Below, piece by piece: positions 55,683 to 60,080 of a stretch of DNA of 64,000 nucleotides; positions within the stretch are counted from its first letter, which is position 1; each line of letters begins with the position of its first letter. A model generated the notes under the pieces. It was not told the DNA's origin. It made no database searches and was given only the letters and a program-made list of their open reading frames with translations. Origin of the DNA: Halanaerobiales bacterium. GTDB taxonomy: Bacteria; Bacillota; Halanaerobiia; Halanaerobiales; DTU029. The stretch covers positions 1 through 64,000 of the forward strand of contig JANWJZ010000023.1 of assembly GCA_025451675.1 (NCBI GenBank). Direction: 5' to 3'. The position numbers and the translations under genes were made by a program.

Positions 55683-55925
55683 ATCTGGTAATAAACCTGT
55701 TGAATATTTAATTTCTTGAATTAAAAAGAAAAATGTAATATGATATAATTGATAATAATTACTATTCTGTATGGAGTTTAATCATTATTCTATGACAATA
55801 GGACTAAATTTATCCTGCCCCATTTACTGCCTTACTGGAAATAGATTATAATGGAACAGGGAAGGAAATTTTTGATTGTAGTCGAATAATGTATTTAAAG
55901 CTAATTATCCTGGAGGTTTTATTAG

Positions 55926-58100
55926 ATGAGATCGCAGGGGGACTTAATCTTTACATTGGATATAGGTACCAGGACTGTAGTCGGCTTGGTGATGAGATAC
56001 AGTAATGGTATATATGAAATACTGGCTTCTGATGTGGCTGAACATGAGGAAAGGGCCATGCTGGATGGCCAGATTCATAATGTTAATCTGGTTGTTAAAC
56101 AGGTTAATAGAGTTAAGAATAAACTGGAGGAAACCCTTGCTGTAAAACTTGAAAGAGTGGCAATTGCAGCAGCAGGGCGGGCCCTGAAAACTGTTGACAC
56201 TGAAGATTCCCTTGAATTTACAGAGAAAAGATTAATTACTGAAGATGATATCAGGTCACTGGAATTCAGTGCTATTCAGAAAGCCAGGAGTGAGTTGCTG
56301 AGAACAGGTAGTGAAAGTGCTATTCCCCAGGATTTTCATTTTGTTGGTTATAGTGTAAAGGAATACGAACTGGACGGTATATATATTCAGAATCTGGAAG
56401 GCCATCAGGGTAAACATTTAAAGGTCAAAATTGTCGCGACCTTCCTGCCAAGGGTCGTAGTGGATTCATTATTATCAGTAGTCAATAAAGCTGGTTTGCA
56501 GGTTGATTATCTCACTCTGGAACCAATCGCAGCAGCAAATCTGGTTATTCCAAGGGATATGTACAACTTTAATCTTGCCCTGGTAGATATCGGTGCCGGT
56601 ACATCAGATATTGCTTTGACCAAAGGCGGTGCCATATTTGCCTATTCCATGGTACCAGTAGCGGGTGATGAGATTACTGAAGCTATAGCAGAACATTATC
56701 TTCTGGATTATAATACGGGCGAGAGGGTAAAGCGCAGCCTTCTAGCCGGCCAGGAAATCAGGGTTCATAATATATTGAGCCAGGAAGTTTTTATAACACC
56801 TGACGAGGCTTTCCGGGTTATTGAACCTGTGGTACAGAGCCTGGCTGCCCAGATCAGTGAAGCCATCCTGATGTTAAATAATAGGACTCCCCAGGCTGTT
56901 ATCTGTATCGGTGGTGGCAGTTTAACCCCTAATTTATTAGAAGGGATAGCGGAATATTTAAGCTTGCCTCAGGATAGGGTGGGAATAAAGCAATATAATG
57001 ATATAAAAGTAATTCAGGGAGAGATTTCTGGAATTAATCCTGCCCAGGCCAGTACCCCTATCGGTATAGCTGTTTCTGCCCATGAGAATAAGGGTAAAGC
57101 CCATTTCCTTGATGTTAATGTTAATGGTCATAAATATCAAATTTTTACAGTAAACCGGGGGACTGTTGCCGATGCCCTCATGGCTGCAGGAATCGATTTG
57201 CGGGAAGTTACCGGTTTGCCCGGAAGGGGCATAACCTGTACAGTCAATGGAGAATTAAGGATTATTAGAGGTGAACTGGGAGAACCGGGCCAGATTATCA
57301 TTAATGGTGAAAAGGCCGGCCTGGATACAGAGATTAAATCCGGTGATGTAATTGAAGTAGTTTCTGGCAGTAGGGGGAAAGATGCCAGAGGAGTTATAGG
57401 TGATCTTGTCCCGGAGCTGACTACATATAATATTAGAATAAATGGGGAATATGTCCTGGTCAGGCCGGAGATTTACCAGAATAATCTGCTGGTTGATAGG
57501 GGAACCCCCATCATAGATGGTGCTGAAATTAGATATGACAAATTTGAGACAATCGGACAGGTCATAGCCAAAATTTATAGTTTAAACCCAGCAGGGCTGA
57601 GAAACAATTTTATTTCATATAAGATCAACAATGAGGTAAGGTATATCCCCCAGGATGAATTACTTGTCCTTGTAGATAATAAGCCCATCGATTTGAACAT
57701 GCCTGTAGATGAAAGCCTGGAGTATACTGTGCTGAAGGGGGAAAAAAAGACATTTACCATTAAAGACATAATGGATGCCAGTTTAAATGATAGTATTGAA
57801 ATTATATTTAATGGCAGCAGGCTGAATATCCCCACCAGAGGAAAGCTTTATTGTAATGGTGAAGAAATACTGGATGATAAACAGATTAAGCATGGCGATG
57901 AGTTTGAGTATAAAGAAAAGACCATTACTGTACGTTCTGTTTTTGAATATATAAATTACAAGGTAACACCTTTTTTAAATACCTTTACCTTAACCGTTAA
58001 TGGAGAGGAAGCCAGCCTGGATGATTATTTAAAAGACGGCGATAGACTGGAGTTGACCTATCGAGGGGCCAACAAATACATGAAGAAGGAGAATCTATGA
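55926..58100 (+). CDS. Large FtsA-like actin-fold ATPase with C-terminal repeat extension
   Basis: 724 residues, against about 400-440 for classical FtsA. The first 400 are actin-like: phosphate-1 loop FTLDIGTRTVVGLV near 9-22, an SHS2-like insertion near 80-170, phosphate-2 LVDIGAGTSDIAL near 219-231 and adenosine loop CIGGGSLTPNL near 325-335. From about 410 comes a mostly beta region of about 310 residues in repeated units, each with a NGE/NGH/NGS turn and a GDxxE/GDRLE ending, resembling small beta-grasp or ubiquitin-like folds. There is no amphipathic FtsA membrane tail. FtsA links FtsZ to the membrane; here the partner is unknown and no ftsZ is nearby. It overlaps the next gene (ATGA). 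Confidence 0.8.
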   Translation: MRSQGDLIFTLDIGTRTVVGLVMRYSNGIYEILASDVAEHEERAMLDGQIHNVNLVVKQVNRVKNKLEETLAVKLERVAIAAAGRALKTVDTEDSLEFTEKRLITEDDIRSLEFSAIQKARSELLRTGSESAIPQDFHFVGYSVKEYELDGIYIQNLEGHQGKHLKVKIVATFLPRVVVDSLLSVVNKAGLQVDYLTLEPIAAANLVIPRDMYNFNLALVDIGAGTSDIALTKGGAIFAYSMVPVAGDEITEAIAEHYLLDYNTGERVKRSLLAGQEIRVHNILSQEVFITPDEAFRVIEPVVQSLAAQISEAILMLNNRTPQAVICIGGGSLTPNLLEGIAEYLSLPQDRVGIKQYNDIKVIQGEISGINPAQASTPIGIAVSAHENKGKAHFLDVNVNGHKYQIFTVNRGTVADALMAAGIDLREVTGLPGRGITCTVNGELRIIRGELGEPGQIIINGEKAGLDTEIKSGDVIEVVSGSRGKDARGVIGDLVPELTTYNIRINGEYVLVRPEIYQNNLLVDRGTPIIDGAEIRYDKFETIGQVIAKIYSLNPAGLRNNFISYKINNEVRYIPQDELLVLVDNKPIDLNMPVDESLEYTVLKGEKKTFTIKDIMDASLNDSIEIIFNGSRLNIPTRGKLYCNGEEILDDKQIKHGDEFEYKEKTITVRSVFEYINYKVTPFLNTFTLTVNGEEASLDDYLKDGDRLELTYRGANKYMKKENL

Positions 58101-58684
58101 AAATCTTATTGATAGCTGATAAGGAACATAAGGCTTTATATGATTTTTTTGATAGGGAAAGATGGGAGGATATAGATTTGATTCTCTCAGCAGGTGATTT
58201 GAAACCTGCTTATTTGCGCTTTCTGGTTACCATGATTAATAAACCCTTATTCTATGTTAGGGGTAATCATGATCAGAATTATACCAAGGATCCTCCCCAC
58301 GGTTGTGTGGATATTCATGGCAAGATTGTAGAATTTCAAGGCCTGAGGATTCTGGGGCTGGAAGGTTCCAGCTGGTATAATGGCAAGGGAGTTCAATATA
58401 CAGAAAGACAGATGTGGCGGAAAGTTATAAAACTCTGGCCCAGGCTTAAATTTGGTAACGGGATAGATATCATTTTAACCCACAACCCGGCTTTCGGGCT
58501 TAATGATGGAAAAGGCCATGCCCACCGGGGTTTTAAGTCTTTCCGTTATCTCATTGATACCTTTTCACCACGCTATTTCATTCATGGGCACCAACACCTA
58601 TCCTACGCCATGCGCAACCGTATAATCCAATATAAAGATACGCAGATTATAAATGCCTATGAGTATTATGTGCTGGAAATCTGA
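58097..58684 (+). CDS. Calcineurin-like metallophosphoesterase
   Basis: 195 residues. Motifs in order: ILLIADKEH near 3-11 (the usual D-x-H is D-K-E-H), LSAGDLKP near 32-39, RGNHDQN near 55-61, ILTHNPAFG near 128 and HGHQHLS near 160. All metal ligands other than the altered first motif seem kept. The substrate could be a nucleotide, phosphoprotein or phospholipid. It starts inside the FtsA-like gene and the following nucleotidyltransferase frame is open inside its 3' end, so the three genes are one operon. Confidence 0.83.
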   Translation: MKILLIADKEHKALYDFFDRERWEDIDLILSAGDLKPAYLRFLVTMINKPLFYVRGNHDQNYTKDPPHGCVDIHGKIVEFQGLRILGLEGSSWYNGKGVQYTERQMWRKVIKLWPRLKFGNGIDIILTHNPAFGLNDGKGHAHRGFKSFRYLIDTFSPRYFIHGHQHLSYAMRNRIIQYKDTQIINAYEYYVLEI

Positions 58685-58691
58685 AATTGAG

Positions 58692-60080
58692 GTGCATTTG
58701 GAATTGTTGAAAGGATGGGATTGTTTAAAAATACTTGCTGAGTTAGTGAAGGAGGAAAAGCTTGAGGCCTATCTGGTAGGCGGGGCTTTACGGGATATAT
58801 TCCTTGGCAAAAATAATGTTGATCTTGATATCGTTTTAAGAAAGCGGGTAGCTGAAATAGCCCGCTATTTTGCTGAAAAAATAAAAGGTAGTTTTGTAAC
58901 ACTGGATGATAAACATAAAATATACCGGGTAATAGGAAAGGATATCTTTTTTGATTTTACTGCTATGAAGGGAGACAGCATCCTGGAGGACCTCTCCAGA
59001 AGGGATTTTACCATTAATGCCATGGCTTTTCCTATATGTTCAGGCGATAATTTTTCCGGTTTCCTGGATTTGCAAAAAGTGATAGACCCCCTTGGCGGCT
59101 TGAGGGATTTAAAGGATAAAAAAATCAGGGTAACAAATGAAAGGGTTTTTATAGATGATCCTCTCCGTTTGTGGAGGGCTTTCCGTTTTGCAACAGAGGG
59201 TTTTGTGATAGAGGAAAAGACAAGGGAATTGATCTCAGAAAACAGTATGCTGGCAGGGCAGGTGGCCCGGGAGAGGATAAAAGAGGAATTAATGAAGATA
59301 TTGCAAAAAAAGGATAGTGCAAAGATCATCAGGGAAATGGAGGAAGAGGGCCTGTTTTCCAGTATTATCCCTGAGATAAAACAAATGAAAGAAACAGGGG
59401 AAAATAAATATCACCATGAAGATGCCTGGAACCATTCCCTGCAGGTTTTGAATGCCTTGGAGGAGATACTGGAGGATGGCAGGTATAATAAATATGTGGC
59501 CATTGAACAGCATCCTCTACTTAAGTTTACAGCTCTCCTGCATGATATAGGGAAGATCAATAGCAGGATTGTAAGGGGAGGCCAGGTTCATTATTATGGC
59601 CATGAGAATGCAGGGGTTAAAATCCTTAAACCTATTCTTAAAGGATTAAGATTCAGCGGGAAAGAGGTCTCTTTTGTTTGTGGGGTGGTCCGTTTCCATA
59701 TGCGGCCTTTTTACCTTTATACAGCAGAGAAACTGAGCAAAAAAGGAATCCTGCGTTTTTTCCGCCAGGGGGATGCACTGGTACCGGCAATCCTGATTCA
59801 TTCCCTGGCAGATAAGTTAGCTAATATGCGGAGCAATAAGCGCAGTGCTGAAATTCCTCTTTATATTGCCTTTATTGATGAACTTTTTACAAAATATGAG
59901 GATTTTCTGGAAAGGACAGAGCTTCTTTACCTGAATGGAAGAGATATCATAGCTATTACCGGCCTTCCTGAGGGTCCCCGTATTGGTGAGCTGTTAAATG
60001 AGTTAATTATTGCCCAGGCAAATGGAGAGGTGAATAACCGTAATGAGGCAATTGCCTATATTAAAAGTATAAGTGATTGA
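58692..60080 (+). CDS. CCA-adding-type tRNA nucleotidyltransferase with HD domain
   Basis: About 463 residues. The nucleotidyltransferase core has LVGGALRDIFLG near residue 27 and the metal pair DLDIV near 43. The RRDFTINAMAF motif lies near 114-124 and the DPLRLWRAFRFA motif near 156-167. A helical RNA-binding part follows, then an HD phosphohydrolase domain with HHEDAWNHSLQV and ALLHDIGK near 240-290. This suits class II CCA-adding enzymes or a poly(A) polymerase relative. The start is unsure: GTG at 58692 or TTG at 58698 or 58704 (after GAGGTG); codons before 58692 lack a ribosome site. The 3' end overlaps the convergent YuiD gene by 20 bases. Confidence 0.9.
   Translation: MHLELLKGWDCLKILAELVKEEKLEAYLVGGALRDIFLGKNNVDLDIVLRKRVAEIARYFAEKIKGSFVTLDDKHKIYRVIGKDIFFDFTAMKGDSILEDLSRRDFTINAMAFPICSGDNFSGFLDLQKVIDPLGGLRDLKDKKIRVTNERVFIDDPLRLWRAFRFATEGFVIEEKTRELISENSMLAGQVARERIKEELMKILQKKDSAKIIREMEEEGLFSSIIPEIKQMKETGENKYHHEDAWNHSLQVLNALEEILEDGRYNKYVAIEQHPLLKFTALLHDIGKINSRIVRGGQVHYYGHENAGVKILKPILKGLRFSGKEVSFVCGVVRFHMRPFYLYTAEKLSKKGILRFFRQGDALVPAILIHSLADKLANMRSNKRSAEIPLYIAFIDELFTKYEDFLERTELLYLNGRDIIAITGLPEGPRIGELLNELIIAQANGEVNNRNEAIAYIKSISD

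Follow-up and report, generated by a model that had tools for sequence, protein, structure and literature searches.

The open reading frame (ORF) at positions 55926 to 58100 of the window, the whole 64,000-nucleotide stretch of DNA that was analyzed, codes on the + strand for an oversized FtsA-like protein of 724 residues. The ORF, Pfam searches, AlphaFold and Foldseek together describe it as an FtsA-fold core followed by a tail of five ubiquitin-like units. All coordinates of the window given below are on the same strand. A likely ribosome-binding site, GGAGG (55912..55916), was read in the sequence about 10 bases 5′ of the ORF. A transketolase gene lies upstream. Downstream, a calcineurin-like phosphoesterase gene (58097..58684) overlaps the FtsA-like gene and precedes a gene for a CCA/polyA-polymerase-type enzyme with an HD domain (58653..60080). 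The first-pass annotation of this DNA had placed the FtsA-like gene in an operon with these two, and their identities are borne out by Pfam. As a clue to function, however, the arrangement failed, because this gene order is kept only in close relatives and is thus lineage-specific.

An FtsA-fold core and a tail of ubiquitin-like beads

The actin-like core occupies residues 1 to 387 (55926..57086) and is delimited by Pfam, Foldseek and AlphaFold. It scored above the Pfam cut-offs for both PilM_2 (38.3 bits, cut-off 27) and FtsA (36.8 bits, cut-off 31.8), and the solved structures nearest to it in Foldseek searches were all FtsA, with TM-scores of up to 0.86 by target length. The FtsA-type core proposed in the first-pass annotation is therefore upheld. 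An SHS2/1C-type subdomain at approximately residues 84 to 172 (56175..56441) gave a weak match to PF02491, below its cut-off, and is spanned by the Foldseek alignment. In an alignment of 77 orthologues, the phosphate-1 motif DIGTR (residues 12 to 16; 55959..55973), in which D12, G14 and T15 are invariant, the phosphate-2 motif DIGAGTSD (residues 221 to 228; 56586..56609) and the adenosine motif GGGS (residues 329 to 332; 56910..56921) are conserved, and all three are intact in the window protein, which makes nucleotide binding by the core likely. The hallmark of the family is the signature RxMLDGQIHN, found here as RAMLDGQIHN (residues 43 to 52; 56052..56081), with almost all of its positions invariant among the 77 orthologues.

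The tail (residues 388 to 715, about 328 residues) consists of five beta-grasp, or ubiquitin-like, units, in agreement with the earlier suggestion of several small beta-grasp domains. Unit R1 (residues 388 to 482; 57087..57371) is DUF348/ThiS/TGS-like with conserved Gly-rich loops, and is followed by R2 (residues 483 to 540; 57372..57545), R3 (residues 541 to 607; 57546..57746), R4 (residues 608 to 666; 57747..57923) and the Ub-Mut7C-like R5 (residues 667 to 715; 57924..58070). All five were delimited with AlphaFold and profile comparisons, and R1 and R5 also with Pfam. The tail matched the Pfam families ThiS, DUF348 (the G5-linked ubiquitin-like domain), TGS and Ub-Mut7C, every one of which is a beta-grasp family. 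The AlphaFold model has a mean pLDDT of 89.0 over the full length and of 89.8 for the tail by itself; with a pTM of about 0.65, the orientation of the units is uncertain, although confidence is high within them. Likeness among the repeats had been set beforehand as a refutation test for the first-pass reading. All 10 profile-profile pairs among R1 to R5 gave probabilities of 97 to 99%, as against 9.3% at most in 45 control comparisons of tail units with core segments, showing that the five units are mutually homologous.

In Foldseek searches with the tail, linear tetra-ubiquitin and an Escherichia coli multi-ubiquitin-domain protein (9cd2) ranked first (E of about 1e-6); the whole-tail TM-scores were low because the orientations of the units differ. 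Like these proteins and ISG15, the tail is made of head-to-tail beta-grasp beads. In contrast with the window protein, the tandem ubiquitin-like proteins have no actin core, and sequence identity in the structural alignments did not exceed about 10%. R1 matched DUF348 above the Pfam cut-off. DUF348 is known in secreted proteins, whereas no signal peptide is evident in the sequence of the window protein, which is presumably cytosolic.

R1 is the best-conserved bead of the tail. Conservation is lower in R2 to R5, and some members lack R4 or R5. Once fragments at contig edges were left out, protein length in the phylum sample ranged from about 580 to 866 residues. The longer members (L112, L115, G083, G193, G200 and G222), with open frames of 825 to 866 residues, suggest extra tail units and may offer a view of how the number of beads changes.

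After R5 the protein ends in nine residues (716 to 724; 58071..58097) that AlphaFold predicts to be disordered (pLDDT below 50). The terminal amphipathic membrane helix is absent from the window protein, as had been noted in the first-pass annotation.

A clade apart from FtsA and PilM

A separate canonical ftsA, which the first-pass annotation had advised looking for, is present in the same genome. It forms part of an ftsQ-ftsA-ftsZ locus on another contig (C67), and its product ends with FFNKIKRFFEWF, by sequence a membrane-targeting helix. As stated at first reading, ftsZ is not beside the FtsA-like gene of the window; nor was an ftsZ neighborhood found at any locus examined. The window protein shares with canonical FtsA (TIGR01174) the fold, the SHS2/1C-type insertion and the nucleotide motifs. 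Unlike it, the protein falls below the NCBIfam ftsA cut-off (106.3 bits versus 175.85) and carries the five-bead tail. The genome also encodes a third FtsA-family protein, a tail-less paralogue of 419 residues (L002:1429-2685; G000 C21:66672-67739), which recurs in related genomes. Its FtsA-like core resembles that of the window protein, from which it differs by its lack of a tail, its own clade and its other neighborhood.

A maximum-likelihood tree of 49 sequences separated the window family (support 96/93), the L002 type (100/100), canonical FtsA (100/99) and PilM (100/100), the order among these groups being uncertain because of long branches. The window protein family is thus a clade of its own, apart from FtsA, PilM and the tail-less paralogue.

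Public annotation points to another identity, that of a PilM-like component of type IV pilus machinery. On plasmid pDSM15939_1 of Anoxybacillus amylolyticus, a protein of the window family (L237; record positions 133647-135806) is annotated “pilus assembly protein PilM”, a name for which neither the tree nor the cut-offs provide support. In that species the acuBC-ccpA-aroA-ytxJ-murC segment is located entirely on the 258-kb plasmid. PilM (TIGR01175) does have an actin core of the same branch, and the PilM_2 match speaks for a relationship. Nevertheless, the window protein scored 64.9 bits with the NCBIfam pilM model, against a cut-off of 133, and carries a tail. The true PilM of the same genome adjoins PilN/PilO-like genes (L004), whereas no pilus genes, pilN and pilO included, adjoin the window-family gene at the loci examined. 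The tree and the NCBIfam cut-off rule out that the window family is PilM itself, and we consider a PilM-like role in the pilus machine very improbable.

Distribution and genomic company

With a presence threshold of E below 1e-40, the family was found in 118 genomes of a 200-genome sample of the phylum and was missing from the other 82. Outside Bacillota, it occurs in 5 of 145 Omnitrophota genomes, sporadically in Goldbacteria and FCPU426, and in unplaced bacteria. Carriers among the Bacillaceae include Oceanobacillus, Sporosarcina and Anoxybacillus. The distribution of the family, a point that the first-pass annotation missed, is thus both wide and not limited to Firmicutes.

We determined the co-occurrence of the gene with chemosensory, flagellar and sporulation markers in the same 200 genomes. 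CheA was present in 116 of the 118 positive genomes and in 55 of the 82 negative ones (odds ratio 28, p = 3e-10, a value that ignores shared ancestry), and the two positives devoid of a CheA match carry CheW-domain proteins. The association was less tight with FliG (114/118 versus 57/82; odds ratio 12.5) and weakest, among the three markers, with Spo0A (112/118 versus 64/82; odds ratio 5.3). Four of the five genomes with CheA and no FliG have the gene, three of the four belonging to one family, and none of the 24 genomes lacking both markers has it. In Omnitrophota, CheA was found in 5/5 positives and 22/140 negatives (p = 1.6e-4, again ignoring shared ancestry), and two of these positive genomes (G251 and G252) have CheA without FliG. 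All FliG-negative positives contain T2SSE-type ATPases, which would fit a pilus component as well, but these ATPases are near-universal and therefore say nothing about the presence of type IV pili.

The Spo0A counts also bear on the possibility that the protein is a second divisome or cell-shape actin, i.e., an FtsA paralogue for division, asymmetric septation or elongation whose beads bind FtsZ or cell-wall enzymes. The FtsA fold and the presence of Spo0A in nearly all positives agree with such a role, as do, in two families, an MreB-family gene and spoIID-type genes near the gene, as read by eye. It is made unlikely by the existence of a canonical ftsA in its own ftsQ-ftsA-ftsZ locus and in a separate clade, by the missing membrane helix, by the lack of ftsZ neighborhoods at the loci examined and by the 82 genomes of the phylum sample that live without the gene. 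The Spo0A odds ratio is the lowest of the three, and Omnitrophota carry the gene. A role in sporulation was rejected on the same grounds, with the addition that six positive genomes have no Spo0A.

Away from the close relatives of the window, the genes that recur nearby are chemosensory. In all five positive Omnitrophota genomes the gene lies inside a che operon, for example in the order cheY-cheC-cheA-cheC-[gene]-comFB-cheR-cheY-cheD-cheB, and at the FCPU426 and Goldbacteria loci the order is cheB-cheA-cheC-[gene]. The identities of CheA, CheC, CheD, CheW and CheR at the che loci were upheld by Pfam. Four of the Omnitrophota operons (L118-L121) share a conserved 87-residue protein of the ComFB family (PF10719), whose gene separates the FtsA-like gene from cheR.

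In Bacillota, we compared 55 regions from 53 families with 40 control regions drawn from similar genomes. A cheR gene was present in 9 of the 55 regions and in none of the controls; in 8 of the 55 it is located just upstream of the gene, on the same strand and at a distance of about 50 to 1200 bp. The contrast was weaker for any che gene or methyl-accepting chemotaxis protein (MCP) gene (15/55 versus 6/40), as MCP genes and receiver domains are widely dispersed. There was no che gene close by in 40 of the 55 regions, nor in the window. Upstream of the gene, candidate sigma-D promoters were not enriched over shuffled sequences in Bacillaceae, and the best candidate in the window has three mismatches. 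HD-domain genes (HD_5, HD-GYP-like) occur just upstream of the FtsA-like gene in Halanaerobium (L043, L047, L048 and L053), and HD-GYP genes lie close to it in some other Bacillota families (L127 and L149). As a recurring partner HD-GYP was discarded, since 6/55 regions versus 2/40 controls represents no clear excess.

Other Bacillota neighborhoods evoke the flagellum. In one uncultured lineage (L076) the gene sits inside an flg operon, many Bacillaceae have aroA-ccpA and motPS-type genes next to it, and in two families a flagellar rod-type gene was read by eye two genes away. Together with FliG in 114 of the 118 positives, these observations would suit an actin-like flagellar factor, acting in the placement or assembly of flagella, the chemotaxis genes being mere fellow travelers. 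Yet the gene is found in CheA-positive genomes that lack FliG, both in Bacillota (four of five) and in Omnitrophota (G251 and G252), which eliminates the flagellum alone as the partner. In addition, the Omnitrophota neighbors are che genes and none is flagellar, and the odds ratio for CheA exceeds that for FliG. We thus regard the flagellar explanation as quite improbable.

A possible actin-family scaffold for chemosensory systems

We propose, tentatively and with slightly more doubt than confidence, that the window protein is a member of a distinct actin family of the FtsA/PilM branch that serves a chemosensory system. This reading rests on the fold and its motifs, the homology of the beads, the clade formed by the family, the co-occurrence with CheA, and the placement in che operons or next to cheR. 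The core would bind ATP and assemble in the manner of FtsA. The conserved bead R1 might provide a docking domain, with the remaining, more variable beads as an arm holding a chemosensory partner, which could be the receptor array, CheR, CheC/CheD or the kinase complex. In this way, the protein may scaffold or position the signaling array, or couple its output to the flagellum or the type IV pilus. Fold and genomic context would be accounted for most simply by an FtsA-type ATPase that builds a scaffold or becomes part of one and whose beads grip chemosensory proteins. The lack of sigma-D promoters, the 55 CheA-positive genomes of the sample without the gene and the lack of che neighbors at most Bacillota loci speak against this reading; the family would then be an accessory rather than a core chemosensory component. 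A more general version, in which an FtsA-type filament or ring with ubiquitin-like arms of variable length docks and positions the array in Bacillota and several uncultured phyla, whether motility is driven by flagella or by pili, is possible but rather doubtful.

The first-pass annotation had taken this to be a cytoskeletal element not yet described, and the literature searched, which comprised few subscription journals, yielded no description of the family. No paper found there connects FtsA-like proteins with chemotaxis or with beta-grasp domains, and FtsA is not mentioned in a survey of the beta-grasp fold (PMC1949818). Taken singly, neither the actin fold nor the beta-grasp bead is new. 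No account of the two joined together, or of a link with chemotaxis, was found in the literature searched.

More than half of the genomes sampled from the phylum thus contain an FtsA-type actin for whose clade, one member of which is called PilM in a public record, there appears to be no described function. The protein looks like an actin with polyubiquitin attached as a tail, and the genes that accompany it suggest chemotaxis. The chemosensory reading can be tested directly in culturable Bacillaceae. If it is true, an actin-family protein is a dedicated partner of the chemosensory arrays in these bacteria, with consequences for our view of how arrays are positioned and organized.
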